From contig NZ_LITT01000002.1 of assembly GCF_001636845.1 (NCBI RefSeq), positions 62,001-126,000 on the forward strand: a DNA stretch of 64,000 bases, given 5' to 3'. The stretch is from Clostridium ljungdahlii. Lineage in GTDB: Bacteria > Bacillota > Clostridia > Clostridiales > Clostridiaceae. Position 1 is the stretch's first letter. Every line of letters begins with the position of its first letter. Below the pieces are notes generated by a model that saw only the letters and a program-made list of their open reading frames with translations, was not told where the DNA came from and made no database searches. This document shows, one piece after another, positions 4,176 through 58,100 of the stretch. The position numbers and the translations under genes are program-made.

Positions 4176-4228
4176 AATATTTACAATTTTATTATATTAT
4201 CTATTTAAAATATTCATAGATAGATATT

Positions 4229-4282
4229 AAAAGTATTGCGTCCTTTATATTGCTAATAGGGTTTATGGACAATACTTTTTTT
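4229..4282 (+). terminator. Intrinsic terminator after the cyclo-ligase gene
   Basis: AAAAGTATTG (4229-4238) pairs with CAATACTTTT (4270-4279), extended by GTCC/GGAC inside, with a run of T directly after the stem. Confidence 0.7.
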
Positions 4283-4428
4283 ATTTTGTTTAATTCTGCT
4301 GCTATAGTATTTTTATACTATAGTTTTTGTCATAAAATTACATCTGTCAAGTAATGAATTATTTCTAGTTAAAATTAACACACTAATAAGAATGAACTTA
4401 TTTTTATGTTTACATTGGTGGTGTTTTT

Positions 4429-5367
4429 ATGAAAATACTTGATATAGATAATGGTTTTCAAGAAGTTACGGAAGAAATTGATTTTATAAGCAGCCATTAT
4501 TGGATATTACTTCATGCAGATGAAATTGAAAAGTTAAAGGATTTTGTAGACATAGATAGAGATAGTATGGAGGAATGTAAAAGTTTTTCACAAGTATCAA
4601 AAATAAACTTTTTCAATGGGTATCTCTTTATAATACTTAATGTACTCAATTATGTAGAAGAAATAGTAATTCCTAGAGAATTGAATGTATTTTTAAGTAG
4701 AAATTATATAATAACTGTATACAAAGATAAGATTGATATATTAGATGATCTAATACAAGATATATATGACTCCAAAAATTGCTTTTTACTAAAGGACAAT
4801 CCGAGGGCATCTATATTACTTTACTATATTTTAGACAGAATAGTTATAAAAAACTATGATATAATATCCGCACTAGAGGTTAAAGCAGATAAAATTGAAA
4901 TAGATGTTTTAAAAAATCCAAAACATGATCAGATAGATAGTCTTATAACCCTGAGAAGACAAGTTTATAAAATAAGAAAATATTTAAATCCACTTATATA
5001 CATAGGAGATAGCTTGGTTATGAATGACAATCTGGTAATAGAAAAAGATACCTTAGAATACTTTAGCAATTTAAATAGAAAAATAGAAAAACTTATGTTT
5101 TGTATTGAAAGTTTAGTTCAAGATCTAGCTTTAGTGAGGGAAGCTTTTGAATCTGAAACTGCGAATAAAACCAATGAACTCATGAAAGTTTTTACTGTAA
5201 TAGCTACTATATTTTTACCATTAGATCTCATAAGTAGTATCTATGGTATGAACCTAAAAGGAATACCATTTATGGAGATAGAAAATGGATGTCATTATGT
5301 AGTAATAATTATGTTTCTTGTGGCAGTTATTCTTATATGTATATTTAAGAGGAAAAAGTGGTTTTAA
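4429..5367 (+). CDS. CorA family divalent cation transporter
   Basis: This 312-residue protein has a long cytoplasmic helical N-terminal domain and two C-terminal membrane segments (about residues 252-272 and 287-307). The CorA signature YGMNLKG sits between them, followed by a basic tail RKKWF. Such proteins are pentameric channels for Mg2+, and some carry Co2+, Ni2+ or Zn2+. The gene starts at an ATG 6 bases after GGTGGTG. It stands alone behind a terminator and 30 bases ahead of the PucR regulator, so read-through into the regulator is possible. Substrate is not deducible from sequence. Confidence 0.88.
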   Translation: MKILDIDNGFQEVTEEIDFISSHYWILLHADEIEKLKDFVDIDRDSMEECKSFSQVSKINFFNGYLFIILNVLNYVEEIVIPRELNVFLSRNYIITVYKDKIDILDDLIQDIYDSKNCFLLKDNPRASILLYYILDRIVIKNYDIISALEVKADKIEIDVLKNPKHDQIDSLITLRRQVYKIRKYLNPLIYIGDSLVMNDNLVIEKDTLEYFSNLNRKIEKLMFCIESLVQDLALVREAFESETANKTNELMKVFTVIATIFLPLDLISSIYGMNLKGIPFMEIENGCHYVVIIMFLVAVILICIFKRKKWF

Positions 5368-5400
5368 TATAAATTTATAAGGTATAGGAGATGAATACTA

Positions 5401-7028
5401 ATGAAAGATGAGTCAAAATTGGATATAGATAAAGTAAATTTAAGAACTAGTTTATCAGTAAGGGAAGTATTGAAAATACCTATATTCAAGGGCAGTAAGG
5501 TTATAGCGGGGAAAATGAAACTTCAAAATGAGTGCAAACACATTACTATACTTGAAACTCCTGAGGGAATAGAATGGTTAGAAGGAGGAGAATTTCTGCT
5601 CAGTACAGGTTATGCATTTAAAGATGATAAAGGTGCTTTAGAAAATGTTATATACAGGGCATCTAAACAAAATGTTTCTGCAATTGCTATTAAGGAAAAA
5701 AGATATATAAACTATATACCACAGAGAATGATAGATCAGGCAAATGAACATGGGGTACCTCTTATAATGCTGCCTTATAATTTTATATATACTAAGGCAC
5801 TTACAAGTTTTTATAATGCACTAATGTATAAAAAAATAGTTACATTTATGAATCACAAAAAATGCATGATAAACTTTTAAGACTTATACTTGAAAATAAA
5901 AATGTGCCTGATACCGTAAATGCTTTATCAGAATTAACAAATTTTAGTATAATAATTATGGATACCATCTCAAATGTAATTTGTAAAAATATAATTAGTG
6001 GCCATAAAAATGTATGTAAAAAAATATTTGAAGGAAATAAGTTATTTCATAACATTGAATTATTTTTAAATGAGCCTTATGTCAATGAATATGGTGATTA
6101 TAAAATATATATGTACAAATTGAGCTGTAAAGATGACATAATTGGATACATGTATGTTATAAGTGAGTTACTATATAAAAGTTTATATACGGATGTTATT
6201 GAAAATGGTAAAAGAATTTTGGAATTAAAATTAGAAAAAGAAAAAAATGAACCATTAAATGCAGTTAACTTAAATAAGGTTATAACTAATATAATTTTAA
6301 ACAGTAAATCTTTGCCAGACAAGTTTTATTTAAATATAAGAAATAATTACAAATGGAATAATAAAAAAAGCTTTATTGGTGTTTGTATAGACATTTATAC
6401 GAAGAATCAGAAGCTCATTGAACAAATTTGTGGTTTAATTGGAAGAATTTTTAATGGACAAGGTTTTTTTATTACAGAAGATGCAAATAAGATATTTATA
6501 TTTTTTCCTATGGATGGAGATGTTAATTTAAAGGATATAGTAGATAAAGTGTGTATATTTCTTAATAAATATGATAAGAGTGTAAGTGCATCTTTTTCAG
6601 CATCGAGAATATATGATGATATAAAAGATATACCTAAAATGTACAATGAATGTTATATAACTTCCTTATTCAATAAAGAGAAAGAGACACTCTATTATGA
6701 TTCTTTAGATACTATAAAATTATTATATACATTAAAGGGAAATATGCAAACTTCAGAATATTGTAATAAAACATTAGGAAGTATTAAAAAATATGATAGT
6801 GAAAACAAGAGTGAACTTGTAAAAACATTAAATACATATTTTAAATTTAATATGAATAAAAAAGTAGTTTCTAAAGAATTACATATTCACCCTGAGACAT
6901 TGAGATATAGGTTAAGCAAAATAGAGGATTTAACGGGATATTCTCTACATAATTCTGAAGGGATTTTTGCTCTGCAAATGGGAATAAAACTTTACAAAAT
7001 GATAAATTACAACAATTCATCATTTTAA
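5401..7028 (+). pseudogene. PucR-type transcriptional regulator, one-base frameshift
   Basis: The first frame (5401-5880) is a PucR N-terminal domain (LSVREVLKIPIFKG, VIAGKMKLQN, WLEGGEFLLSTGY, IPQRMIDQANEHGVPLI). The second (5862-7028) is the rest of the family architecture: a variable middle, a GGDEF-like region around YNECYITSLFN and a C-terminal PucR helix-turn-helix (HIHPETLRYRLSKIEDLTGY). Joined they give about 542 residues, the normal length. The frames meet at an A6 run (5857-5862); one more A gives NHKKMHDKLLRLIL in a single frame. PucR proteins are ligand-responsive activators of nitrogen-compound catabolism. The neighbouring OPT-DUF917 operon begins downstream in the same direction, so this is its likely regulator. 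If the break is real the DNA-binding part might still be made from the second frame. Confidence 0.82.
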
Positions 7029-7071
7029 TTTGATTTTGAAATTATTAATTCATTCAAAATAGTGGATATGT

Positions 7072-8833: not shown

Positions 8834-9908
8834 GTGGCTAGGAAGATAAAAATTGATGAAGAAATTTTAAATTATGCTGTTTTTGGAGGATGCATACTAG
8901 GAGGCGGCGGAGGAGGTTCTAGAAAATTAGGAATGGAGTCAGGAAAGGCAGCTTTAAAATATGGCAATCTCGAATTGATTGATATAAATGACATTACTGA
9001 AGATACAATTATAATTACAGCTTCAGCAGTTGGAGCTCCTGCTGCTAGTCTTCAATATGTACTGCCAGAATATCATATAAGAACTATAAAGTTATTTGAG
9101 GAAAATACAGGTATAAAAATAGGTGGAATAATAACAAATGAAAATGGCGGCGCTTCTACCATGAATGGATGGACAGAAGCTGCTGCTTTAGATATACCTT
9201 TTATTGATGCACCTTGTAATGGAAGAGCTCATCCTACAGGTGTTATGGGAAGTATGAATTTAAATAATGTGGAAGGATATGTTTCCTGTCAGGCTGCAGT
9301 GGGGGGGGAATCCTGAAATAAATAAGTATTTAGAAACATTTATCAGAGGATCTATAGGAAATGCTTCTAGTATGGTAAGGCAAGCTTCTATATTTGCAGG
9401 AGGTCTTGTTTGTGTAGCTAGAAATTCTGTAACAGCAGGTTATGTAAAAAAGAATGGAGCATTAGACGGAGTATCTCATGCTATTGAAACTGGTAGGGTA
9501 TTTTATAAAGGTTTAAAGCAAAATGTAGAAAGTGCTCCAGAGAGTGCTGCAGAATTTTTAAAAGGAGAAGTAGTTATAGAAGGAAAAGTGGATGAAATTA
9601 TCTTGAATACTACAGGTGGATTTGACGTTGGGGTAGTTAAAGTTAAAGATTATGAAATTACATTTTGGAATGAATACATGACTCTTGAGAAAAATGGTGA
9701 GAGACTTGCAACTTTTCCGGATCTTATAATGACTTTTGATAGTATAACTGGAATGCCTGTAACTAGTGTTGAAATTAAACAAAATCAGGTTGTTAAAATT
9801 ATGAAGACAAGTAAGAAAAACTTAAAGCTTGGAAGTGGAATGAAGGATAAAAGTCTACTTGAACAAGCAGGAAAAATTATAAATAAAGATATTTTAAATT
9901 ACATATAG
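8834..9908 (+). pseudogene. DUF917 family protein, one-base frameshift in a G8 run
   Basis: Two frames (8834-9316 and 9267-9908) join into one protein of about 357 residues, the usual DUF917 size. The N-terminal half has the glycine-rich FGGCILGGGGGGSRK loop and PTGVMGSMNL; the C-terminal half has AGGLVCVARN and ends GKIINKDILNYI. The break is at eight Gs (9301-9308); seven would read AAVGGNPEINKYL without interruption. DUF917 proteins are of unknown function and are often found near hydantoinase-like or racemase genes. The GTG start follows a GGGGG Shine-Dalgarno-like run. A G8 tract inside a coding region is a plausible slippage site, so on/off switching is possible, but an error in the read is equally possible. 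Confidence 0.82.
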
Positions 9909-9932
9909 TTTATATTCAGGGAGGAATAAATT

Positions 9933-10865
9933 ATGTTACTAAAACAAATTTTAGAAGTAAATGACATTGTAGATAGGGCAGATGTAAATGGCAATATGGT
10001 AAAAAAATATTTGGAATCTTATGGTGGAAAAGATATAACTGTTAAAAAAATTCAAGGAGATGAGGGATCTACTGATTTTATAAAAATTAGGATACCAGGT
10101 TTAAAAGGTAAATCAAAAGGGATGGATGCACCAACTATAGGTATTTTAGGTAGACTTGGAGGAATAGGTGCAAGACCTGAACTTACAGGAATGGTTTCTG
10201 ATGCAGATGGTGCCTTAACAGCTTTAGCTGCTGCAGCAAGAATTTTGGATATGCAAAATAAGGGAGATTACTTGGAAGGTGATGTAGTAGTATGTACACA
10301 TATTTGTCCAAACGCTCCTACACAGCCTCACAAGCCAGTTCCTTTTATGGGGTCTCCAGTGGAAATGTCTGTAGTAAATAAAGCTGAGGTAGATGATGAA
10401 TTAGATGCTATATTATCCATAGACACTACAAAGGGAAATAACATAATAAATACTAGAGGGTTTGCTATTTCACCAACAGTTAAGGAAGGATATATACTGA
10501 AAGTTAGCAGCGATATTATAAGTATTATGCAGATTACTACAGGAAAACTGCCTTATGTATTTGCACTGTCAACTCAAGATATTACGCCTTATGGAAATGG
10601 ATTATATCATTTAAATAGTATACTGCAGCCATCAACAGCTACCGATTCACCAGTAATTGGAGTAGCTATAACAACGGAGGTATCCATTCCGGGATGTGCA
10701 ACAGGAGCTAGTCACTTTCAAGATATGGAAGAGGCAGCTAGGTTTTCTATAGAAGTTGCAAAAGCTTATGGGAAAAAAGATTGTAGTTTCTATGATGAAG
10801 AGGAATTTGAATTGATAAAGAAAAAATACGGATCAATGAAACACATACAAACTCTTGGAAAGTAA
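9933..10865 (+). CDS. DUF1177 family protein
   Basis: A 310-residue soluble protein recognised as DUF1177 from its overall pattern: GGIGARPELTGMVSDADGAL, VVCTHICPNAPTQPHKPVPFMG, and IPGCATGASHFQDMEEAARF. Family function is unknown. The His/Cys-rich stretch HICPNAPTQPH and an acidic SIDTTKG stretch look like possible metal or active-site elements, but that is only a reading of conserved-looking residues. The gene has a GGGAGG Shine-Dalgarno site 8 bases before its ATG and sits between the DUF917 and AroM-like genes, a combination that suggests a shared catabolic role. Confidence 0.8.
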   Translation: MLLKQILEVNDIVDRADVNGNMVKKYLESYGGKDITVKKIQGDEGSTDFIKIRIPGLKGKSKGMDAPTIGILGRLGGIGARPELTGMVSDADGALTALAAAARILDMQNKGDYLEGDVVVCTHICPNAPTQPHKPVPFMGSPVEMSVVNKAEVDDELDAILSIDTTKGNNIINTRGFAISPTVKEGYILKVSSDIISIMQITTGKLPYVFALSTQDITPYGNGLYHLNSILQPSTATDSPVIGVAITTEVSIPGCATGASHFQDMEEAARFSIEVAKAYGKKDCSFYDEEEFELIKKKYGSMKHIQTLGK

Positions 10866-10881
10866 AAGGGGTGTTATATTT

Positions 10882-11556
10882 ATGAAGAAAAAAATTGGTA
10901 CTATAACTATAGGACAATCCCCTAGGGTAGACGTAGTTCCTGAAATAAAAAGTGTTCTTGGTGATAATATAGAAATAGTAGAGACAGGAGCTCTTGATGG
11001 TTTGACAAGGGGCGAAATAGAATCATTTAAAATAGAAGATAATGACTATATTTTAGTGTCAAGGCTGCAGGATGGAACTTCAGTTAAATTTGCAGAAAGA
11101 AATATATTGCTAAGACTTCAAAAATGTATTGAAAAATTAGAAAATAGCGGTGTAGAGATCATTGTATTTATATGTACAGGATGTTTTCCGCCTGTATTTA
11201 AATCAAATAGATTACTTATATATCCTCAAACCATTTTACACTCTGTAGTACCTAATCTTGCAAGCAGCAATAAGATAGGAGTATTTACTCCCCTTTGTAA
11301 TCAGATAAGGCAGACTTATGATAAATGGTCTGAAAGTGGGAAAGATATAGAAGTAATAGCTGCTTCTCCCTATGAAAGTATAGAAAAAATTAAAAAAGCA
11401 GCTCTTGATATGAAAGAAAAAAATGTGGATGTAATTGTTATGGATTGTATAGGATACAATTTAAAAATGAAAAATATGGTGAGAGATATAACTGGCAAAC
11501 CAGTTATACTACCAAGAACTCTTATTGGAAGAATCATAAAAGAAATGTTAGACTGA
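10882..11556 (+). CDS. AroM family protein
   Basis: A 224-residue protein starting MKKKIGTITIGQSPRVD, the typical AroM N-terminus, with TGALDGLTRGEI near residue 35. AroM has no assigned reaction. Its fold pattern resembles Asp/Glu/hydantoin racemases: a CTGC motif (Cys98, Cys101) in the first half and MDCIGYNLKMKNM (Cys189) in the second, in the places where those enzymes keep their two catalytic cysteines. I therefore infer a racemase- or isomerase-like role, not proven. The chosen ATG has AAAGGGGTG upstream; a longer frame from 10855 overlaps the DUF1177 gene and lacks family support. Confidence 0.8.
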   Translation: MKKKIGTITIGQSPRVDVVPEIKSVLGDNIEIVETGALDGLTRGEIESFKIEDNDYILVSRLQDGTSVKFAERNILLRLQKCIEKLENSGVEIIVFICTGCFPPVFKSNRLLIYPQTILHSVVPNLASSNKIGVFTPLCNQIRQTYDKWSESGKDIEVIAASPYESIEKIKKAALDMKEKNVDVIVMDCIGYNLKMKNMVRDITGKPVILPRTLIGRIIKEMLD

Positions 11557-11575
11557 CAGTTAGGAGAGATGTATT

Positions 11576-12517
11576 TTGGATTTAGAAAAGGGAAGTAAAA
11601 TAGTATTAGACAAATGCCTTGGTTTAAAAAAAGATGAGAATGTATTGATTGTTACGGATGAAACCAAGTTAAATATAGGACAGGCTTTATATAAGGAAGC
11701 GCAGAAAATGGGAGGAGAAGCTGTACTTGCACTTATGAAATCTGGAGAAGTAAGTGGACAAGAACCTCCTAAATGTATTTCTCAAGCTATGAAATCAGCT
11801 GATGTTGTAATATGTGCAACTAAAGCTTCTATAACTCATACCAATGCAAAGATCAATGCGGTTAAGAATGGTGCGAGAGTTGCAACCATGCCGGGGATAA
11901 CTGAAAATATGTTTTCCGAGGGACCTATAAAGGCAGATTATAATGAAGTGGAAAAACTCACAATAAAAATAACTGACTTACTAACTAAAGCTAAAACTGC
12001 CAAAATAATTAAAGATGGTCATGTGTTAACTATGAGTTTGAACAATAGGAATGGTGTACCGAGCACAGGAGTTTATAGGAAAAGAAGTACTTCTGGTAAC
12101 CTACCTTCAGGAGAAGCATATATAGCTCCTGTAGAGGAAACTGCAGAAGGCGAGATGATAGTTGATGGCAGTATGGTTGGAGTGGGAAAAGTTTCGGAAC
12201 CTCTTTATTTGAAAATTAAAGATGGAAAATTAAAAGAAATAAAAGGCAAAGATGCAGATAAGCTAAATATACTTCTTTATAATGAAAGAAATTCAAGTCT
12301 TTGTGAATTGGGAATTGGAACAAATCCTGAGGCTAAAGTTACAGGAGTTATATTAGAAGATGAAAAAATTTATGGAACAGTACATATTGCTTTTGGTACA
12401 AATATATCTTTTGGAGGAACAGTAAAAGCAGATTGTCATATTGATGGTGTTATTTTAAATCCGGATTTATATTTAGATAATGTCCATGTGATTGATAGGG
12501 GGAAATTCCTAGTATAA
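11576..12517 (+). CDS. M29-like aminopeptidase
   Basis: This 313-residue protein resembles the C-terminal catalytic half of M29 (aminopeptidase T-like) metallopeptidases. It shows GEAYIAPVEETAEG near residue 180, NSSLCELGIGTNP near 242, TVHIAFGTN near 268 and CHIDGVI near 285, which supply the Glu, Glu, His, and His/Asp positions expected for a two-metal site. The enzyme would remove N-terminal residues from short peptides in the cytoplasm. The TTG start has AGGAG 9 bases upstream. It is the last gene of the transporter operon and is followed by a strong terminator, so the system's final step is probably peptide-bond hydrolysis. Confidence 0.78.
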   Translation: MDLEKGSKIVLDKCLGLKKDENVLIVTDETKLNIGQALYKEAQKMGGEAVLALMKSGEVSGQEPPKCISQAMKSADVVICATKASITHTNAKINAVKNGARVATMPGITENMFSEGPIKADYNEVEKLTIKITDLLTKAKTAKIIKDGHVLTMSLNNRNGVPSTGVYRKRSTSGNLPSGEAYIAPVEETAEGEMIVDGSMVGVGKVSEPLYLKIKDGKLKEIKGKDADKLNILLYNERNSSLCELGIGTNPEAKVTGVILEDEKIYGTVHIAFGTNISFGGTVKADCHIDGVILNPDLYLDNVHVIDRGKFLV

Positions 12518-12535
12518 GTTAGAATATATAAAGAA

Positions 12536-12577
12536 AGATTTAGTACTAAAATTTATTTAGTGCTAAATCTTTTTTTA
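12536..12577 (+). terminator. Intrinsic terminator closing the OPT-DUF917 operon
   Basis: AGATTTAGTACTAAA pairs with TTTAGTGCTAAATCT (one mismatch) around a 5-base loop and is followed by seven Ts. Confidence 0.9.
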
Positions 12578-12720
12578 TAAATGAATTTTTATGGTGGAGA
12601 TAAGAAAATATAAATATTAATATATTGGTGTATTTTGTGATAAAATATAATTGTTAATAAAGTGAAGTATAACATTTATCTGTTAATATGATAACATTAA
12701 TATAGAAGAGGAGAGATAAA

Positions 12721-14121
12721 ATGTCAAAAAATTTAACTAAGGAATATAAATATGCATGGGACAAATATTCAAAAAAAGATTTTAAAATACTCTTTAAAAT
12801 TTCAGATGAGTATGAAAAATTTATGTCTAAATGCAAGACAGAGAGAGAATGTGTGAAAGAATTTATATTGAGAGCTGAAAAAAACGGATATAAAAATATA
12901 GAGGATATAATGAATGCAAAATCCACTTTAAAATCAGGAGATAAGGTTTATGCTAATAATAAGGATAAAAATTTAGCTCTTTTTGTACTAGGTACTGAAG
13001 ATATGGAAAAAGGTATGAGGATACTTGGAGCCCATATAGACTCCCCAAGGCTTGATTTGAAGCAAAATCCTCTTTATGAGGATACTGACCTTGCATTGTT
13101 TGACACCCATTATTATGGAGGTATAAAGAAATATCAGTGGGTTACCCTTCCACTTGCCATTCATGGTGTAGTTATAAAAAAAGACGGAACTAAGGTAGAA
13201 GTAGTAATAGGAGAAAAGGATGGAGATCCTGTAGTTGGAGTATCTGACTTACTTGTACATCTTGCAGGAGACCAGATGGATAAGAAAGGAAATAAAGTTG
13301 TAGAAGGAGAAGATTTAAATGTTCTAATTGGAAGTATTCCAATAGAGGACAAAGAAGCTAAAAATAGAGTAAAAAAGAATATATTAAGAATTTTAAACGA
13401 CAAATATGGAATAGAAGAAGAGGATTTTGTATCTGCAGAATTAGAAGTAGTTCCAGCAGGACCTGCTAGAGATTTTGGACTTGACAGTAGTATGGTTATG
13501 GCTTATGGCCATGATGATAAAATATGTTCCTATACTTCTTTTGATGCCATGATGAAAATAGAAAATCCAAACAAGACCTGTGTCACTCTTTTAGTAGATA
13601 AAGAAGAAATAGGAAGTGTAGGAGCTACAGGAATGCAATCAAGATTTTTTGAAAATATAGTAGCTGAAGTAATGTCACTATGCGAAGAATACAGTGATTT
13701 AAAACTTAGAAGAGCTTTAACGAATTCGAAAATGCTGTCTTCTGACGTAAGCGCTGCCTTTGATCCAAATTATCCTTCTGTAATGGATAAAAATAATGCA
13801 GCATATTTTGGAAAAGGAGTAGTATTTAACAAGTATACTGGTGCAAGAGGAAAATCAGGTTGTAATGATGCGAATCCAGAATATATAGCTGAAATAAGAA
13901 ATATAATGGATAAAAACGATGTATCCTGGCAAACCGCAGAACTTGGCAAGGTAGACCAGGGCGGTGGTGGAACTATAGCTTATATACTGGCGGAATACAA
14001 TATGCAAGTTATAGATTGTGGAATAGCACTTCACAATATGCATGCACCTTGGGAAGTAGCAAGTAAAGCAGATATATATGAAGCTGTAAAAGGATACGTT
14101 GCATTTCTAAAAGAGATATAA
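12721..14121 (+). CDS. M18 family aminopeptidase
   Basis: A 466-residue protein of the M18 family, cytosolic zinc aminopeptidases that are dodecameric in known cases. Motifs include GAHIDSPRLDLK (first metal His/Asp), LLVDKEEIGSVGATG (catalytic Glu pair), SSDVSAAFDPNYPS and the C-terminal DCGIALHNMHAPWE (metal His). All are intact. The length matches family members. GAGGAGAG precedes the ATG at a normal distance. It is monocistronic, with the preceding operon terminated upstream. Together with the M29-like enzyme next door, the region is rich in peptide degradation. Confidence 0.92.
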   Translation: MSKNLTKEYKYAWDKYSKKDFKILFKISDEYEKFMSKCKTERECVKEFILRAEKNGYKNIEDIMNAKSTLKSGDKVYANNKDKNLALFVLGTEDMEKGMRILGAHIDSPRLDLKQNPLYEDTDLALFDTHYYGGIKKYQWVTLPLAIHGVVIKKDGTKVEVVIGEKDGDPVVGVSDLLVHLAGDQMDKKGNKVVEGEDLNVLIGSIPIEDKEAKNRVKKNILRILNDKYGIEEEDFVSAELEVVPAGPARDFGLDSSMVMAYGHDDKICSYTSFDAMMKIENPNKTCVTLLVDKEEIGSVGATGMQSRFFENIVAEVMSLCEEYSDLKLRRALTNSKMLSSDVSAAFDPNYPSVMDKNNAAYFGKGVVFNKYTGARGKSGCNDANPEYIAEIRNIMDKNDVSWQTAELGKVDQGGGGTIAYILAEYNMQVIDCGIALHNMHAPWEVASKADIYEAVKGYVAFLKEI

Positions 14122-19436: not shown

Positions 19437-19640
19437 GTGAATAACTGAGGTAGAGGTGCAGAATTTAAGAGTAGAGTTGAGGAGTTAAGCACTGTGATAC
19501 AACTTGAAAGGAAATTTTGCCGAAGTTATTTAGCAGATGCTTTAATGTTAAGTAATTGGGTTTACATAAAATATATGTAAAACTGTCACAAGGTTAATTT
19601 GTGGAGAGCTATCATTCGTTATAGGATTAATATGTCTTTA
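19437..19640 (+). promoter_or_regulatory. Lysine riboswitch (L box)
   Basis: The conserved L-box elements occur in order: GAGGTAGAGGTGCA, AGAGTA and GAGG, GAAAGGAAATTTTGCCGAAG, AACTGTCACA and GTGGAGAGCTATC. This is the standard lysine aptamer, and the next gene is an amino-acid permease. Lysine binding would favour the downstream terminator and shut off lysine uptake. Confidence 0.93.
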
Positions 19641-48006: not shown

Positions 48007-48561
48007 ATGGATGGAATTGATTTAATGATTGAGGAACATAAAAACATAAAAAGAATGTTAGTGGTTATTAGAAAAGCATGTTTAGGTATTATGAATGGAA
48101 AAGAAATTGATTACGGGGATTTTGAAAAGATAATTGACTTTGTAAGAAATTATGCAGATAAAAATCATCATGAGAAGGAAGAAAAAATCTTATTCAATAG
48201 AATGATAGATGAGATTGGAGGAGCAGCTGAGAAATTAGTTAAGTTTGGAATGCTTGTTGAACATGACTTTGGAAGACTACATATTAAGGAGCTTGAGGAA
48301 GGAATTGCTAGGGTTAAGGCCGGTGACAATGAGGCCAAACTTGACGTAATTGCTAATGCTATATCTTATACACATTTATTGAGTAGGCATATAGATAGGG
48401 AAGATAATGTTGTTTATTCTTTTGCCAAGAGAGGACTTTGCGAAGAAACATTAAATAAAGTCAATATAGAATGTGATAAATTCGAAGAAAAAATGTATAG
48501 AGATGGTGTTCAGAATAAGTATATTCAGATATTAAAATTGCTTGAACAAAAGTACAAGTAA
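48007..48561 (+). CDS. Hemerythrin domain protein
   Basis: A 184-residue hemerythrin/HHE protein: MIEEHKNIKRML, KNHHEKEEKILF, LVEHDFGRLH, and HLLSRHIDREDNVVYSFA supply the His and Glu ligands of a diiron centre. Related clostridial proteins act in oxygen or nitric-oxide response or iron-sulfur repair. AAAGGTATGAG precedes the ATG. It is a second, different hemerythrin type from that at 17043. Promoter region lies in the 200 bases shared with the divergent LysM gene. Confidence 0.88.
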   Translation: MDGIDLMIEEHKNIKRMLVVIRKACLGIMNGKEIDYGDFEKIIDFVRNYADKNHHEKEEKILFNRMIDEIGGAAEKLVKFGMLVEHDFGRLHIKELEEGIARVKAGDNEAKLDVIANAISYTHLLSRHIDREDNVVYSFAKRGLCEETLNKVNIECDKFEEKMYRDGVQNKYIQILKLLEQKYK

Positions 48562-49582: not shown

Positions 49583-50342
49583 ATTTTTAGCAGAATCATC
49601 CGTTGGAAGAAGGAAAAAGGTTAGGACTTATATCAAAGAAGGTATGGTTAAGGTAAATGGAGACGTGATAACAGAACCGGCAATAGAAATTAACGAAAGT
49701 TCTGATATTATTGAATATCTTGGTAAAGTAGTTACTTATACTGGAAAAGTATATTATATGTTTAATAAACCTGCTGGCTATATTACTGCAAGGAAAGATA
49801 AAGCTCATAAAACAGTATTTGATTTTTTTAACGATGTTAACATGAATGGAGTATTTCATGTTGGAAGATTAGACAAAGATACAGAAGGATTATTGCTTTT
49901 TACCAACGATGGTGAATTTGAACATCAATTAATGTATCCCCAAAAGCATGTTGAAAAAACTTATTTTTTTTGGGCTTTGGGTTCTTTAGATGAGGAAGAT
50001 AGGAAGCAATTAGAGCAAGGAATTTACATAGGAAAAGGTAAAATACTAACGAAGCCTGCAAAAATAGAAGTCCAAAAATGTGGAATGTATAAAGAGTTTA
50101 AACATGAAATGCCTGTCCCAAATTTACACAATATAGATTCAAAACATTATAATCAGTCCGTTGTTTCTGGATATCTTACTATTTCAGAGGGGCGTAAGCA
50201 CCAAGTGAAGCGTATGTTAAAGGCAGTAGGCTGTTATGTAGTGTATTTAAAAAGAGTTTCCATTGGAGGGTTAATGTTAGATGAATCATTGGAAAAGGGT
50301 CAGTATCGATTCTTGACAGAAGTGGAAATTCAAAAGTTATAG
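49569..50342 (+). CDS. RsuA/RluB-family pseudouridine synthase
   Basis: A 257-residue rRNA pseudouridine synthase with an N-terminal S4 RNA-binding domain (RLDKFLAESSVGRRKKVRTYIKEGMVKVNG in residues 2-31) and the catalytic domain: KPAGYITARKD, catalytic Asp in GRLDKDTEGLLLFTNDG, and SEGRKHQVKRML. It converts a uridine in rRNA. The ATG lies within the end of ywbE. It resembles RsuA (16S) more than RluB, but the exact target cannot be given. Confidence 0.88.
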   Translation: MRLDKFLAESSVGRRKKVRTYIKEGMVKVNGDVITEPAIEINESSDIIEYLGKVVTYTGKVYYMFNKPAGYITARKDKAHKTVFDFFNDVNMNGVFHVGRLDKDTEGLLLFTNDGEFEHQLMYPQKHVEKTYFFWALGSLDEEDRKQLEQGIYIGKGKILTKPAKIEVQKCGMYKEFKHEMPVPNLHNIDSKHYNQSVVSGYLTISEGRKHQVKRMLKAVGCYVVYLKRVSIGGLMLDESLEKGQYRFLTEVEIQKL

Positions 50343-50442
50343 GGAGAATATCACACTAATTTTTTGTAGGTAAAGTATAAAATAGGTTATAATAAATAAA
50401 AGATGCTCTAGATAATAATTTTTTGTAGAAGGATGAAATTTT

Positions 50443-53124
50443 ATGATATTACATAGTAAAGAAAAAACAGAAAATAAGAGATTAATTGTTTCTCTTAAAG
50501 AAAACGGATCTTTTGAACTTGATTTTGAGGTTACAAAAGCGCAGGTTGATGAAAGTGAGATTACATTATTTAAGAAAATATATAAGCAATTCATAGAAAA
50601 TGATATTAAATCACTTTTTTATATGGGATTTTTAAAAAAAACAGAGGCTGAATCTGAGTCTTTTAATTTTTTAAGGCTTATTGCAGCTAGCTTTGTAAAA
50701 AAATTATCTATGAATGTCGATATTGAAGCTTTGCGTGAAAAAATTGTAGTCCCTATAGAAGATGAAGAAATTAACCATATACTTGATATTGCACCATATT
50801 TAAATGGTTCTGAGTACCTAAGCTATAATTGGATCCAACAGGTATGGAAAAAACTTAATAAATGCTTTTGCCAAATGATTAGTGATTACAAAGGAACTGT
50901 TCAAGAATTTTTAACTTCTTTTAATCCTGATATACATGTTGCTGGAAAAGTTTTTTTTCACTTGGTTGAAAGTAAAAAGGAGGACTATCCTTTTGCTTTT
51001 TTAGCAACTTATTCTACATATGTTTCAAAGGATGGTACATCAAAACACCTGCCGCTTAAAAATGCACTTATTGAATATGGGGAAAATAGTGAAAAAATTT
51101 TAGAATTACTTTCTACAGTAAATAAGGCTTGCGAAAAAAGTTCTTTTATTTCAGAGCTTGTTGAGTCTGGTGAGATATTCCACCCACTTGGATTAAACGC
51201 TAATGAAGCCTATACTTTTTTAAAGGAAATACCTTTGTATGAAGAATCAGGTATTTTATGTCGTGTTCCTAAGTGGTGGAAAAACAAATCAGATTCATTA
51301 AAGATGTCTATAAGTGTTGGAGAGAAAAATCCATCAAGGGTAAATTTTGATGCTTTAGTAGATTTTAATGCCGAATTATTTCTTGGTGAAGAATCTATTG
51401 ATGCCGTTGAAATTAAAAAACTTCTTTCAGAAGCAGAAGGACTTGCTTTTATAAAGGGAAAATGGGTGGAAGTAAATCACGAAAAATTGAAAGAAATGCT
51501 TAAGGCTTATGAGAAAGCACAAAAACTCATGAGTAAAAAAGATGTAAATTTAATTGAAGCTATGCGTTTTGAGTTAAATGCTCCTAAAATATTAAATATG
51601 ACCGATGATACTTGTAAACTTGAAATAACTAATGGACAGTGGCTTAATTCAGTAGTTACAAGATTAACTCATCCAGATACAATTGAAACTATTCCAAGTG
51701 GAGCTGATTTTCATGCTAATTTAAGAGAATATCAAGCAAGAGGATTAAGCTGGCTCAATTTTATGAAAAAACTTGGACTTGGTGCATGTTTAGCAGATGA
51801 TATGGGGCTTGGAAAAACTATACAAGTTATTGCTTTACTTAATTATATCAGAACTAATGAGCATGAAAAAACACTGCTCATCGTTCCGGCATCGCTTATT
51901 GCGAATTGGATGAGTGAAATTGTAAAATTTGCACCTTCATTAAAGTATTATGTTATACATCCTTCAGAAAATAAAAGTTTAGAGGATGTAGATGAAAGTA
52001 TTGTAGAAAAATATGATATTTTTATAACTACCTATGGTATGCTTTCAAAGCATGAATGGTTAAAGAATGTAAACTGGGATTCATTAGTTCTAGATGAAGC
52101 TCAGGCAATTAAGAATCCAGGAACCAAACAGACAAGGCTTGTGAAGCAATTAAAAGCTTCTTATAGAATTGCTATGACAGGTACACCTATAGAAAACAGA
52201 CTTTCTGATCTGTGGTCATTGTTTGATTTTTTAAATAAAGGTCTCCTTGGCACAGCGAAAGAATTCTCTAATTTTGCGAAAAAGCTTAAGGAAAATGAAG
52301 AGAATTATGGTAGATTAAAAAAAGTAGTGAGTCCATTTATTCTTAGAAGATTGAAAACGGATAAGACAGTTATTTCGGATTTACCAGACAAAATTGAAAT
52401 GAAAACTTATGCAGAACTTACTAAAAAGCAGGTAGTTCTTTACAATAAACTTGTGAAGGATTTGAAAGTAAAACTTGAATCTACTGGAGAGGGTATAGAG
52501 CGTAAAGGACTTGTACTTTCATCTATTATGAAATTTAAACAAATATGCAATCATCCATCACAGTATATGGGTCAGGATTATTATAATGAAAAAGAAAGCG
52601 GTAAATTTGCAAGACTTCGTGAAATTTGTGAAACAATTTATGAAAAGAGAGAAAGAGTTCTTGTATTTACACAATTTAAAGAAATAACTGAACCACTAAG
52701 TCATTTTCTTGAAAATGTATTTCAGCATAAAGGACTTGTACTACATGGAGGAACTAGTGTTAAGAAGAGAAAGGAAATGGTAGAAAAATTTCAAGGAAGT
52801 GAATACGTACCTTTTATGGTGCTTTCTATTAAAGCAGGTGGTGTAGGATTAAATCTTACTTCAGCTAATCATGTTATTCATTTTGATAGATGGTGGAATC
52901 CGGCTGTTGAAAATCAAGCAACGGACAGAGCCTTTAGAATAGGTCAAATGAAAAATGTAATAGTTCATAAATTTATTACAAAAGGTACAATTGAAGAAAA
53001 AATTGATTTGATGATTGAGGATAAAACCAAATTAACTAAAGAAATTATGCCTGACACTAAGGAAAATTGGATTACTGAAATGGACAATAAACAGCTTATG
53101 GATTTGTTTAGATTGTCAATATGA
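50443..53124 (+). CDS. SNF2-family DEAD/DEAH helicase 1
   Basis: An 893-residue SNF2 ATPase. Residues 1-420 are a helical N-terminal region. The ATPase has LREYQARGLSWLNFMKKLGLGACLADDMGLGKT (Walker A DDMGLGKT near residue 453), ITTYGMLSKHEW, DEAQ near 549, TGTPIENRLSDLWSLFDFL, then the C-terminal helicase motifs SIKAGGVGLNLTSANHVIHFDRWWNPAVENQATDRAFRIGQ (core WWNPAVENQATDRAFRIGQ). It lacks a SWIM finger, but the next gene encodes one. SNF2 proteins move along or remodel DNA-protein complexes. AAGGATG precedes the ATG. Confidence 0.9.
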   Translation: MILHSKEKTENKRLIVSLKENGSFELDFEVTKAQVDESEITLFKKIYKQFIENDIKSLFYMGFLKKTEAESESFNFLRLIAASFVKKLSMNVDIEALREKIVVPIEDEEINHILDIAPYLNGSEYLSYNWIQQVWKKLNKCFCQMISDYKGTVQEFLTSFNPDIHVAGKVFFHLVESKKEDYPFAFLATYSTYVSKDGTSKHLPLKNALIEYGENSEKILELLSTVNKACEKSSFISELVESGEIFHPLGLNANEAYTFLKEIPLYEESGILCRVPKWWKNKSDSLKMSISVGEKNPSRVNFDALVDFNAELFLGEESIDAVEIKKLLSEAEGLAFIKGKWVEVNHEKLKEMLKAYEKAQKLMSKKDVNLIEAMRFELNAPKILNMTDDTCKLEITNGQWLNSVVTRLTHPDTIETIPSGADFHANLREYQARGLSWLNFMKKLGLGACLADDMGLGKTIQVIALLNYIRTNEHEKTLLIVPASLIANWMSEIVKFAPSLKYYVIHPSENKSLEDVDESIVEKYDIFITTYGMLSKHEWLKNVNWDSLVLDEAQAIKNPGTKQTRLVKQLKASYRIAMTGTPIENRLSDLWSLFDFLNKGLLGTAKEFSNFAKKLKENEENYGRLKKVVSPFILRRLKTDKTVISDLPDKIEMKTYAELTKKQVVLYNKLVKDLKVKLESTGEGIERKGLVLSSIMKFKQICNHPSQYMGQDYYNEKESGKFARLREICETIYEKRERVLVFTQFKEITEPLSHFLENVFQHKGLVLHGGTSVKKRKEMVEKFQGSEYVPFMVLSIKAGGVGLNLTSANHVIHFDRWWNPAVENQATDRAFRIGQMKNVIVHKFITKGTIEEKIDLMIEDKTKLTKEIMPDTKENWITEMDNKQLMDLFRLSI

Positions 53125-53142
53125 TGTATGGAGGTAGATTGA

Positions 53143-53919
53143 ATGTCGTATTATGGAGGTTTCCAGGAGTATGTTCCAGTATCAAAAAAAAGGGAAAGGG
53201 CACAGAAAGCTGTTGAAAAGTTAAGAAAAAAAGATCCTACTATTTCTCCAATTATAATTGAAGGAAGAAGTATATCTAAAACCTGGTGGGGAAAATCCTG
53301 GAATGATAATCTCGAAAGCTATGCTGATTATTCAAATCGTATTGGAAGAGGACGAAGCTATGTAAGACATGGAGCTGTTTTAGATTTAAAAATTAATGTG
53401 GGAAGTATCAGCGCCCTTGTGCAGGGAAGTGATAAAAAACCATATAAAGTTGAGATCAATATTAAACCTATTTCTAAAGAACTCTGGAAAACAATTGAGA
53501 AGGAATGCGTCGGCAAAATTCATTCTTTAGAGGAACTTACGCAGGGAAAGTTTCCTAAAGCATTATCGGATCTATTTACGGCCAAAGGCAAAGGATTATT
53601 TCCTACACCTAAGGAGATAACAATGGGATGCAGCTGTCCTGATTGGGCAGATATGTGTAAACATATAGCGGCAGTACTTTATGGAGTAGGAGCTAGACTT
53701 GATGATGATCCGTTACTATTTTTTAAATTGAGAGATGTAAATATTCAAGATTTAATTAAAGAAGCAGTAAATGAAAAATCGAAGGTGCTTCTTGAAAAAT
53801 CTGAAGTTAAAAGCCGTAGAATTCTTGATGACACTGATGTTTTTGATATGTTTGGAATTGATATGGATACTGATACTAAAGAAGTTAAAAGTAAAAAAAC
53901 AACTAAAAATAAAAAGTAA
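53143..53919 (+). CDS. SWIM zinc-finger protein
   Basis: A 258-residue protein with an SWIM finger MGCSCPDWADMCKHIAAVLYGVG near residues 160-182 (C-x-C-x(n)-C-x-H). The upstream part has ISKTWWGKSWNDNLESYADYSNRIGRGRSYVRHGAV (core WWGKSWNDNLE), the standard opening of this family. It begins 18 bases after helicase 1, with TGGAGG, so the two form an operon; the finger is supplied as a separate polypeptide here but fused in helicase 2. DNA or protein binding inferred. Confidence 0.88.
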   Translation: MSYYGGFQEYVPVSKKRERAQKAVEKLRKKDPTISPIIIEGRSISKTWWGKSWNDNLESYADYSNRIGRGRSYVRHGAVLDLKINVGSISALVQGSDKKPYKVEINIKPISKELWKTIEKECVGKIHSLEELTQGKFPKALSDLFTAKGKGLFPTPKEITMGCSCPDWADMCKHIAAVLYGVGARLDDDPLLFFKLRDVNIQDLIKEAVNEKSKVLLEKSEVKSRRILDDTDVFDMFGIDMDTDTKEVKSKKTTKNKK

Positions 53920-53951
53920 AAATTTAATGACAAGTAATTCTAGTTATAGTA

Positions 53952-53978
53952 TTGACATTAACCACTAATAGGTATAAA
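53952..53978 (+). promoter_or_regulatory. Promoter of the B12-riboswitch transcript
   Basis: TTGACA (53952-53957) and TATAAA (53973-53978) with a 15-base spacer, which is short but plausible. Confidence 0.5.
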
Positions 53979-54002
53979 TTAAAATTAAATTATATAAAGA
54001 TA

Positions 54003-54163
54003 AATATAGGTTTAATCAATTTTAATTAAAAGGGAATCAGGTGAAAGTCCTGAACTATCCCGTAGCTGTAATAGATGAGTTTTAGTGCATTTATGCCACT
54101 TAAATATTGGGAAGGCGTACTAAAATGAAGAATCTTGAGTCAGAAGACCTGCCTATATTATAC
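54003..54163 (+). promoter_or_regulatory. Cobalamin (B12) riboswitch
   Basis: The conserved landmarks are in order: an AATATAGG closing strand, GGGAATCAGGTG, AAAGTCCTGAACTATCCCGTAGCTGTAA (core CCCGTAGCTGT), GCCACT, GGGAAGGCG and the B12 box GAGTCAGAAGACCTGCC, then the closing strand CCTATATT. This is a standard AdoCbl-class aptamer. A perfect terminator lies about 90 bases downstream, before the next gene. Confidence 0.94.
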
Positions 54164-54249
54164 ACAAATATCTCTACGAGTGATAGGGGGCGTGTTATAA
54201 TGATAGTTTTGTTGGATTTCTTATGACTGAACAAACTTTATTATATTGT

Positions 54250-54282
54250 TTCCTTTTAACGCTTTCGTTAAAAGGAATTTTT
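54250..54282 (+). terminator. Riboswitch-controlled terminator
   Basis: TTCCTTTTAACG pairs exactly with CGTTAAAAGGAA around CTTT, followed by TTTTT. It is the likely expression platform of the B12 riboswitch. Confidence 0.88.
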
Positions 54283-54306
54283 ATGTTTATAAGGGAGGAT
54301 TTTTTT

Positions 54307-54804
54307 ATGAATCGTTATTTTTATCAGACGCAGTTTTCTGAATATAAACCGGGATTGATTACTTATTTAAATAGAAATAATGAAATAAAAGTGAAAATTA
54401 ATAATGTATATTTTTATGAGTATCTTAAAAAAGTAGTAGGATTTTATAAAGAACTTGAACATTATTATGAAACCTATTCGTCAAAAGTAAAAGAAATTGT
54501 GGAACAAGATGGAATAGACCTTGAAAATATTAATGAAATTCTAAAGCTTGATATGTATTTGTATAACATTGTAAGTATATACCAAGATGATACTATATTT
54601 GAAGAAGATCTTGAATTTAATGAAAACTTAGAGAACTGGATTCATCATATTGATGAAGATACTTTGCTTGCCTACTTTAATAGCAAGTATGACTTAGATA
54701 TTTTAAATGATAAAAAGATATTTTTTAATATTTTTTCAAATAAACCTAAGTTGCATAGTCATGATAAACAGGTTTGGGATTATAAAAAGGTTGATGTAAT
54801 TTAA
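54307..54804 (+). CDS. Unrecognised protein under B12 riboswitch control (165 aa)
   Basis: I do not recognise this protein. It starts MNRYFYQTQFSEYKPGLITY at the ATG at 54307, with AAGGGAGG 8 bases upstream. The open frame begins earlier, but that part is the riboswitch terminator. It is soluble, acidic and helical (YEYLKKVVGFYKELEHYYE, then the acidic runs EEDLEFNENLENW and HHIDEDTLL), has no signal peptide and no clear metal motif apart from scattered His (LHSHDKQVWDYKKV near the end). Being shut off by cobalamin suggests a role in cobalt or B12 supply or in a B12-independent substitute. No B12 gene is adjacent. Confidence 0.75.
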   Translation: MNRYFYQTQFSEYKPGLITYLNRNNEIKVKINNVYFYEYLKKVVGFYKELEHYYETYSSKVKEIVEQDGIDLENINEILKLDMYLYNIVSIYQDDTIFEEDLEFNENLENWIHHIDEDTLLAYFNSKYDLDILNDKKIFFNIFSNKPKLHSHDKQVWDYKKVDVI

Positions 54805-54835
54805 AAATATATATCAATTATTATTGTAAATAATA

Positions 54836-54877
54836 AAAGTCTCGTCCATTTCTATGATGGATGGGCTTTTATTTTTT
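54836..54877 (+). terminator. Intrinsic terminator
   Basis: AGTCTCGTCCAT pairs with ATGGATGGGCT (with G-U pairs), then TTTTATTTTTT. It ends the B12-controlled gene. Confidence 0.75.
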
Positions 54878-54935
54878 CCCATTGAAACTATGCAGTAAAT
54901 AAGATAAGAGGTTACTTTCAATCATTGATAACTTG

Positions 54936-55067
54936 TTTATCCGATGACTACCTGCTCTAATACTCCCACTTTTCCAAGTGGGAGTAAAGAGCAGCTACGT
55001 CCCTGGATAACGATTTCTAAGCATCAGGTGGAGTCAAAACTCCATCTGATGCCAAGAACTCTGTTTA
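54936..55067 (-). repeat. Structured repeat copy 5 (type B, short)
   Basis: On the minus strand it starts TAAACAGAGTTCTTGGCATC and has the GGAGTTTTGACTCC hairpin, GTTATCCAGGGACGTAGC, a hairpin of CTCCCACTT with AAGTGGGAG and ends GGTAGTCATCGGATAAA. The second hairpin matches copy 1. It lies immediately upstream of helicase 2. Confidence 0.85.
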
Positions 55068-55113
55068 TGATATAATAGAAGGATTGAAAAATTTAAATTT
55101 ATAGGGAGAAGTT

Positions 55114-58100
55114 ATGTTAACTGAAGATGCATTGTTACAAATATTTAATGAACAAACTACAGGCGAAAATTATTTAAAAGGTCAGAGAGTTCTAGACAAT
55201 GATCTGGTATCTTGCATAGATATAATAGATGAAGACAAATTAATTTGTATAGAGGGAAATGTGATCTCAGAAAATCTTTTTAATGAATACAATACTAAGA
55301 TTGAAATGGATACGGGTAAAAAAAGCATTTTTTCTACATATTGCAGCTGCCAGGATTATGAAAAAAATGAATTTAAAAAAACAAACTACTGCTGTAAACA
55401 TCTCACAGCGACTTTTTATAAGGCTCTAGGGGATTTAGTTCAGCATGAAGCTTTAAAAGATGATAATATAAATAGTATATTTAAAAATAAAAGTAATGTT
55501 TTATCCTTGCTTTTAGGAGATGAAAAAGATAAGGAAGAATTAAAAATAGAGGTTTATATAAATAAAAACCAATGGAATGGTAATATAACAGCTGAATTTA
55601 AAATAGGAGTGAAGTCCACAAGTTCAAGTAATCTTTATGTTTTAAAGGATATAAATAATTTTTTGACATGCTATTATAATCGTGTTCCTATAAAGTACAG
55701 TAAAAATTTTACTTTTGATATAAAAAAGCAAAAATTATCCACTAAGGATAAGAGACTTATTTCCTTTATAGAAACTTTGAAGGAAATGGAAAAAGATTAT
55801 AAATATTTTCGTAAAAAAGGTGACGAATGTGTGAGTGGAAAGTATATTATCATTCCTAAGTATTTAATTAGAGAATTTTTTGAAATTATAAAAAAGCATA
55901 GAACATATCTAAATGAAGGATTTTTTTCTAGACCTATAGAAACAGAAATCCTATTTGAAAATCCAGCTGTGGAGTTTGATTTGAAAACCATAAAAGATAA
56001 TTACGTTCTAAAATCTTTATCAGGTATGCCAGAGTCTCTTAGCTCTAAAAATGATGTCTTCTTATATGGTTCTACTATATATCTGCCAGGCTATGAATTC
56101 TGCTATAAAATAAGTCCTTATTTGAAGGTCTTTAATGAAGCTAGGGTAGTAACTATAGATAAAGCTCAGGAAGATACTGTATTAAAAAGGCTCATTCCCA
56201 ATCTCAATTTTTTATCAGATAGAGTTACTTTGTCAAAGGCTATAAGAAATAAGGTTGTAATTGATAAGTGTAAGTTTAACTTTTATTTTAACAAGGAAGG
56301 TAAGGATATCACACTTATTTTAAAAGTTAAGTATGGGCAATTTGAATTTAATATTTTTGAAGATTGTGATGAAAGGATTATATATAGAGAATCTAAAAGG
56401 GAATCTCAGGTTATTGGAATTCTCACGTCACTAGGATTTGAAGAGGTAAATGGAAAGTTTTACTTTTTTATGGGTGATGATTATATTTTCAATTTCTTTA
56501 AAAATGAAGTATTTAAACTTCAAGAAATAGGAGAAGTTTACTATTCAGAAAACTTTAAAGGCATAAAATCCATAGGGAGTAAAGGTATAAATGGAGATAT
56601 CAAAACGGGTAAATATAATTATTTTGAAATGGATTTCAAAATAGGAAATATAGATCCAAGGGAAACTACAGGTATATTAAAAGCCTTTAGAGATAACCTG
56701 AAATATTACAAGTTGAAAAGCGGAGAATATCTTGACCTTGAAGAATTAGAACTTAAAAAGTTTTTAAAACTTTTAGATGTGGTTTCCTATAATAATATAG
56801 AGGATAATAATATAACGATAGATACAAATAAGGCTATCTTCATTGATGGATATTTAGAAGATAACAATATTACATATATAAAGGGAAAAAAAGAGCTAAA
56901 TAAAATAAGAAATAAATTTAGAAATGTAGACAAATTGGAATTTGAAGTCCCAAAAGAGTTAAATGCTTCCCTGAGAGAATATCAAAAATCAGGGTATAAG
57001 TGGTTAAAAAATTTAGATTACTTTGGGTTTGGTGGAATCCTAGGAGATGAAATGGGACTTGGAAAAACACTTCAAACTATTACTTTTATACTTTCCAGCC
57101 AAGGAAGCAAATCTTTAATTATAGTCCCCACATCCTTGGTTTACAATTGGATGGACGAATTTGAAAAGTTTGCACCTACTTTAAAGATATTACCTGTTGT
57201 AGGAACAAAAGAAGAAAGAGAAACTGCTGCTTTTCATATGGAAAACTACGATGTTATTATAACTACATATAATCTTTTAAAAAGAGATTTGAAAATGTAC
57301 TCTGAAAGAGAATTTGATTACTGTATATTAGATGAAGCACAATATATAAAAAATCCAAATGCTCAAAATACAAAGGCAGCAAAACAAATAAAAGCAAAGA
57401 CACGATTTGCTCTATCTGGAACCCCTATGGAAAACTCTCTTATGGAACTTTGGTCTATATTTGATTTTATAATGCCAGGTTATCTATATGATAAAAATAG
57501 ATTTAGCGTAAGGTACTATAAAAAGCTTAAAGAGAGTCCTGAGGTAATTGAGGATTTAAATAGACTCATAGCTCCATTTATACTTAGACGGAAGAAAAAG
57601 GATGTTATAGTGGAATTACCTGATAAAATAGAAAAGACACTTATGGTTACTTTAGATGATAAGCAAAAAAAAGTTTATAAAACTTATGCAGATCATGCAG
57701 TTGACCTCATTGAAAAAAAAGTAAAAGAGGATGAATTTAAGAATAGCAAAATAGAGATACTTTCCTATATAACGAAACTTAGGCAGTTATGTTTAGATCC
57801 TAGTATATTAATAAATAATTACAGCGGCGGAAATGGAAAAATGGATGCACTAGTAGAGCTGATTCATAAAAGTATATCGCAGGGACATAGAATACTTGTT
57901 TTCTCCCAATTTACATCTGTGCTTAAAAATATAGGAGAAAAAATTTCTGAAGAGAAAATCTCCTTTAGTTATTTAGACGGTACTATAAAATTAGAAGAAA
58001 GAATAAATATAGTAAAAAAATTTAACAAAGGTAAAAATTCAGTGTTTTTAATAAGCTTAAAAGCTGGAGGAACAGGATTAAATTTAACTTCAGCAGATGT

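Follow-up and report, generated by a model that had tools for sequence, protein, structure and literature searches.

A family of small proteins, 165 residues long in Clostridium ljungdahlii, lies behind cobalamin (B12) riboswitches in every genome in which we found it, and control of the family by B12 is well supported by the sequences compared here. The C. ljungdahlii gene was analyzed within a 64,000-nucleotide stretch of contig NZ_LITT01000002.1, here called the window. The family is without a relative among the known families searched, while the RNA switch itself is ordinary. We give roughly even odds to the reading that the product is a cytosolic accessory protein of corrinoid supply, with its gene repressed by adenosylcobalamin, in corrinoid-demanding clostridia.

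The cobalamin riboswitch aptamer occupies positions 53991 to 54170 of the forward strand (RF00174, 105.0 bits; E value, 3e-25). The match covers model positions 1 to 189 of 189, against a gathering score of 31.5 bits, and above that score there is 1 cobalamin match in the 64-kb window and 12 in the whole C. ljungdahlii genome. An earlier note on this DNA had called the aptamer complete, and the full-model match agrees, although the aptamer begins 12 nt farther upstream than the note had placed it. The window also carries a lysine riboswitch at 19443 to 19619 (RF00168, 118.6 bits). On the 5' side of the cobalamin aptamer is a promoter-like site on the same strand (TTGACA-17-TAAATT, 53952 to 53980, 10/12 matches) found by a consensus scan that is weak evidence alone, having returned 9 sites versus 7.8 in shuffles; the TTGACA of this site is present in all seven aligned leaders.

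Downstream of the aptamer, the forward-strand expression platform (54171 to 54249) contains the hairpin AUCUCUACGAGUGAUAGGGGG, probably P13, and a possible antiterminator strand at 54181 to 54190. An intrinsic terminator follows on that strand (54250 to 54282), with a 12-bp stem (54250 to 54277), a 4-nt loop, and a T tail; it stands directly before the gene, as had been proposed. It precedes the coding region in the manner of RF00174 expression platforms. The interval from 53900 to 55120 contains four terminator-like sites on the two strands together, two of them overlapping, compared with 0.4 ± 0.5 in shuffles, and a hairpin with a U-rich tail occurs in all seven homologue leaders tested, a set that excluded C. 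magnum. The open reading frame (ORF) of the 165-residue protein (54307 to 54804, forward strand) has an ATG start at 54307 after a ribosome binding site, AAGGGAGGA, read from the sequence at 54291 to 54299 of the same strand. A second forward-strand intrinsic terminator (54841 to 54875; stem, 54841 to 54865, with a T-rich tail) ends the unit; this gene is therefore most likely the only one that the riboswitch serves, and the aptamer, terminator, and ORF most likely make up one single-gene transcription unit. Compared with an ordinary RF00174 riboswitch with an intrinsic terminator, the full-length aptamer and the terminator are the same, and only the downstream gene is new.

When six leaders were folded to a consensus without the terminator 3' arm, the strand at 54181 to 54190 paired with the terminator 5' arm; in the full fold, it belongs to the P13-like hairpin. 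Shuffled arms gave a duplex as strong in 254, 426, 228, 333, 327, 266, and 587 of 1,000 cases for the seven leaders, respectively. Because the antiterminator pairing is not stronger than shuffled arms in any of the seven, we treat it as a model only.

The protein was described in the earlier note as belonging to no recognized family, and the searches agree: no Pfam or NCBIfam family matched the window protein at E values up to 10, and it likewise drew no PADLOC match. Among seven clostridial members of the family, Pfam returned six weak matches, each to one of the seven (best E value, 0.003) and none to a B12 family. PHROGs gave a best E value of 0.0048 in one of the seven members and one family shared by three of them (best E value, 0.075), and a search of solved structures gave a single match for the family (E value, 0.56); the weak matches in all three collections are at chance level. 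The protein matches no family model of the known B12 regulon (cbi/cob enzymes, BtuFCD, CbiMNQO, and isoenzymes), and two homologues matched none of the PADLOC anti-phage models at E values up to 0.1. Two fold predictions gave no usable fold (mean pLDDT, 41.9 and 41.5); both models place a hairpin near residues 17 to 31 and helices near 33 to 55, 59 to 67, and 72 to 91, at a confidence too low to use.

The homologues range from 153 to 167 amino acids. No hydrophobic stretch in the window protein is long enough to form a membrane helix, and the highest 19-residue hydropathy mean across the eight homologues is 0.71. The window protein is acidic, as previously stated (30 D+E, 19 K+R), but acidity is not a trait of the family, since acidic and basic residues are balanced in C. 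carboxidivorans (24 and 24) and C. drakei (23 and 23). Purifying selection acts on the gene: dN/dS lies between 0.15 and 0.50 in each of the 21 pairwise comparisons among the seven clostridial copies.

Eight homologues are known, counting the window copy: 7 among 225 genomes of the order and 1 in a genome of another order (G475), which turned up when 391 genomes of the class were sampled (E value, 4.5e-61). The other carriers are C. carboxidivorans, C. drakei, C. magnum, C. thailandense, C. ragsdalei, and genome G136; the named species are presumably acetogens. The seven relatives are 59 to 75% identical to the window protein, and 46 positions are invariant in all eight. A search of 338 sampled genomes of the phylum at E values up to 1e-8 returned only the window genome's own copy, and one of 58 genomes from the order to which G475 belongs, at E values up to 0.001, returned only G475. 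It is important to note that the homologue set is small, that the genomes searched represent about half of the known species, and that the class and phylum were sampled. No homologue was found in plasmids or phages, nor in viral contigs scanned with two peptide patterns. A scan of genome contigs with two narrow peptide patterns recovered five of the eight homologues and missed G475, so the absence of further matches in that scan says little.

One genome search also gave weak profile matches in 17 genomes. ORFs were inspected in five of these (G079, G202, G195, G169, and G115), and our count of homologues omits the other 12 as well as six weak genomes of the class search. A weak match in G114 was rejected as lying within a 1,055-residue coiled-coil ORF. 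Those in G079 (E value, 6.6e-6) and G202 (E value, 8.3e-4), which both appeared in the order search as well, with G079 also in the class search, were set aside by judgment because they align with the ATPase core of an XPB-like helicase; the alignments score 24.0 and 18.5 bits over that core, including the GSGKT motif in G079, with no separate domain, and the accompanying shuffles, made with the first 170 residues of the helicase, do not serve as a control for the ATPase-core region.

The note had proposed a survey of homologues for upstream B12 riboswitches, and all eight have one (RF00174). The homologue is the first gene behind the riboswitch in six genomes and the second in two, with an ORF of up to 86 amino acids intervening in C. 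thailandense and a Cys-rich PF04071 gene in C. magnum; no terminator-like site was found on the same strand between the intervening ORF and the homologue in either genome. A tree of 30 aptamers places three riboswitch lineages over this one protein family. Six aptamers, which we call H-type, are 88 to 94% identical in the printed pairs, and the window aptamer is 91 to 94% identical to those before five clostridial homologues. The aptamer before hemA in the window genome, at 79% identity, groups among them (support, 0.51); thus, the H-type group is not exclusive to the 165-residue gene. The C. magnum operon aptamer is 85% identical to a C. carboxidivorans aptamer (carb_b) and clusters with aptamers that, in the window genome, precede DUF3467, MCP, and CWB2 genes, and the G475 aptamer is 73 to 77% identical to aptamers before additional cbiJ genes (support, 0.96) versus 60 to 62% to the printed H-type aptamers.

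In C. magnum, the remnant of an H-type aptamer lies directly 5' of the homologue, and another B12 switch heads the operon. Local alignments of the remnant score 57 and 66, compared with maxima of 36 and 34 in 2,000 single-letter shuffles each. One riboswitch has thus degenerated at a locus whose operon is now headed by a different B12 riboswitch, which speaks strongly against a chance association. Further, the neighborhood of each of the seven relatives (17 to 18 kb) contains at least one further B12 riboswitch. The earlier suggestion that the protein is a candidate for a new part of cobalamin physiology is therefore supported for the B12 link, not for any particular role.

A role in corrinoid supply is suggested by the functions of neighboring genes. 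In G475, a precorrin-6A reductase gene lies 22 nt 3' of the homologue (TIGR00715, 229 bits; cutoff, 129.85). Near the homologue, C. drakei has a BtuF- or siderophore-type substrate-binding protein, C. carboxidivorans has both an ECF S component and a methyltransferase, and C. thailandense has CbiM and a methyltransferase. The window copy has no B12 gene adjacent to it; the observation that no B12 gene is beside the gene is thus correct for the window but does not extend to G475 and some other relatives. Signaling and surface-protein genes occur in the same neighborhoods, and gene position is thus not specific evidence for supply. A SWIM gene adjoining the window copy was rejected as a partner: it occurs in 34 of 200 genomes of the family (E values up to 1e-20), 3 of which have a homologue. 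These three are the window genome, C. drakei, and C. thailandense, and the two genes are on different contigs in the last two.

Separately, four clostridia have a further cbiJ (precorrin-6A reductase) behind a B12 riboswitch, 15 to 33 kb from the homologue and followed by apparent cobalt transport genes (L121:5356-6165, minus strand; L123:8266-9075; L124:2886-3683, minus strand; and L125:5800-6590). The cbiQ, cbiO, cbiM, and cbiN genes after it were assigned by reading the sequences, and the C. magnum copy of this cbiJ is broken.

The distribution of the gene can be compared with that of CdhD, the family of Wood-Ljungdahl corrinoid iron-sulfur proteins. CdhD was found in 15 of 200 family genomes (E values up to 1e-30), including all 7 that carry the 165-residue gene, and also in G475; the gene is absent from 8 of the 15 CdhD-bearing family genomes. 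The hypergeometric probability of this overlap is 2.8e-9, a value that assumes independent genomes, but the genomes are related (two genera plus G475).

A more specific version of the supply reading, which we hold only tentatively and think somewhat less probable than its negation, is that the family has a dedicated and new function in the corrinoid metabolism of clostridia with a Wood-Ljungdahl corrinoid protein, for instance as a chaperone or partner that handles the corrin ring or cobalt beside precorrin-6A reductase, and that evolution has placed it under three different B12 riboswitches. Some published systems offer comparisons. CbiR was likewise discovered from an unrecognized ORF linked to cobamide genes by position; it is a cobamide-remodeling TIM-barrel enzyme of the AP endonuclease 2 superfamily, whereas the 165-residue protein has no family (PMC7733943). 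BtuH, whose function was also once unknown, is a B12-binding protein from a B12 uptake locus of gut Bacteroidetes, another phylum (PMC8941943). Two C. ljungdahlii papers describe a B12 riboswitch antisense to a purH-like gene (PMC9943018, PMC5640608), likewise an unusual target, but one that acts antisense and on a different gene. The latter, a transcriptome study, mentions genes beside B12 riboswitches. Among the papers listed by our PubMed Central searches, we found no description of the 165-residue protein; the supplementary tables of PMC5640608, outside those searches, may list the gene. Passages of PMC9600662 and PMC12452182 were found to hold nothing bearing on it.

Other B12 riboswitches in these genomes have varied neighbors. 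Similar proteins occur near B12 riboswitches at L057:2944-3912, L024:6190-7173, L121:12763-13758 (minus strand), L123:6885-7865, and L124:9724-10722 (minus strand). The C. magnum member (L024) scores as AP_endonuc_2, and all five match endonuclease IV models weakly; these may be candidates for CbiR. In the window genome, a riboswitch at L057:5471-5647 (plus strand) faces the end of a purH-like ORF read from the sequence (5878-7053, minus strand), an arrangement that seems to be the published antisense case. Another, at L055:6647-6829 (minus strand), precedes an 85-residue DUF3467 protein (6039-6296, minus strand), which a C. thailandense gene (L124:10858-11109) resembles. Pieces of a CobN-like gene, apparently broken, lie behind a B12 riboswitch at L055:6824-7939 (minus strand), where only a 239-residue piece matches CobN in Pfam. 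A further riboswitch in the window genome (L060:3081-3260) precedes a chemotaxis receptor gene (4HB_MCP, 3570-5323) split over two frames. In C. magnum, one at L024:13087-13273 (minus strand) precedes a gene for a GGDEF/HD protein and then one for a chemotaxis receptor (8882-12936, minus strand), and in C. thailandense one at L124:4226-4413 precedes a GGDEF/HD gene (4593-6323). Control of chemotaxis or c-di-GMP by B12 would be unusual, and a PubMed Central search for such riboswitch control turned up only a paper on another riboswitch.

The switches before the MCP gene of the window genome and the GGDEF/HD genes of C. magnum and C. thailandense are among the observations that favor another reading, in which the protein would be a signaling adaptor of the B12-starvation response that acts on a response regulator or on chemotaxis or GGDEF/HD proteins and has no direct role in supply. 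Moreover, the gene after the C. carboxidivorans homologue encodes a response regulator that consists of a receiver domain only (PF00072); no terminator-like site separates the two on that strand, and C. drakei has a closely similar ORF in this position. However, the regulator adjoins the gene in only two of the eight genomes, both close relatives, and was rejected as a constant partner; a promoter-like site (11/12 matches) precedes the C. carboxidivorans regulator gene; and G475 ties the family to cbiJ instead. We consider an adaptor role unlikely.

The protein could also replace a corrinoid-dependent enzyme and be repressed by B12, or it could be an enzyme from some other part of metabolism that is required only when B12 is low. 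Isoenzymes are a known class of cobalamin riboswitch target; a regulon survey sorts the targets into biosynthesis, B12 transport, cobalt transport, isoenzymes, and other or unknown roles (PMC3766115). The small size of the homologues, the lack of any enzyme family match beyond chance, and the supply genes among the neighbors in G475 and several clostridia all argue against an enzyme of this kind, to which we assign a low probability.

Lower still is our estimate for a protein that assists the large surface proteins under B12 control (CWB2, DUF4430), or partners them in an immunity-like way; those surface proteins may bind corrinoids at the cell wall. A CWB2 protein stands behind a B12 riboswitch about 1 kb downstream of the C. 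carboxidivorans homologue, a DUF4430 protein lies about 0.5 kb upstream of the C. ragsdalei homologue, and large ORFs that look similar are near the homologue in C. drakei, G136, and C. thailandense. Nevertheless, no such gene is adjacent in the window or in G475, and neither the lack of a long hydrophobic segment nor the PADLOC result for two homologues fits such a partner.

The position of the window copy differs among close relatives. The SNF2 protein adjoining it is 96 to 97% identical to its C. ragsdalei and G136 counterparts, and yet the block from 50341 to 54911 is missing from the corresponding C. ragsdalei locus, where the flanking matches (to 50340 and from 54912) are 105 bases apart. 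In G136, the match begins at 55064, and the preceding ORF is the one found at window positions 48007 to 48561. The riboswitch-gene pair sits elsewhere in both genomes, 88 to 89% identical over 53951 to 54734. Because the block is missing in C. ragsdalei and the upstream sequence differs in G136, the unit must have moved, been inserted, or been lost there; loss of the block in both is possible. The dS values to C. ragsdalei and G136 are 0.27 to 0.29 for the 165-residue gene versus 0.16 to 0.18 for the SNF2 gene, a difference that may reflect either transfer from a relative or an old second copy. An element of about 123 bases (54941 to 55063), with internal inverted repeats and lying between TTTAT copies, is perhaps a small non-autonomous mobile element; G136 lacks it at this position, and C. 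ragsdalei has at least part of it.

The missing block and the different sequence upstream of 55064 could be taken to mean that, in the window genome, chance brought a riboswitch together with a gene unrelated to it, but the pair is intact elsewhere in C. ragsdalei and G136, and an accidental joining is highly improbable because all eight homologues lie behind B12 riboswitches of three lineages, in differing neighborhoods, with purifying selection on the seven clostridial genes. Of the two findings that the earlier note had said would refute its proposal, we saw neither: there is no sign of a recent deletion that produced the arrangement, nor, among the eight found, any homologue lacking a link to B12.

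Returning to the corrinoid supply reading, the leader RNA would be an adenosylcobalamin riboswitch of the OFF type in the B12 regulon of acetogen-like clostridia; we infer the direction of control from the known riboswitch class. With ample cofactor, the aptamer would bind its ligand and close, the terminator would form, and transcription would end before the gene. When the cofactor is scarce, RNA polymerase would read through and the protein, presumably cytosolic, would be made. It may then help to restore the cofactor pool through corrinoid uptake, salvage, or corrin-ring synthesis, and the cells that benefit would be those with a heavy corrinoid demand, having the Wood-Ljungdahl corrinoid iron-sulfur protein.

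Acetogens, some of which are used industrially for gas fermentation, fix carbon via a corrinoid protein, and their acquisition of corrinoids is only partly understood. The replacement of one B12 riboswitch by another over the same gene is a sign of selection on its regulation, and a family without a known relative that lies behind a B12 riboswitch in every genome found here offers a direct way into the corrinoid supply of acetogens.
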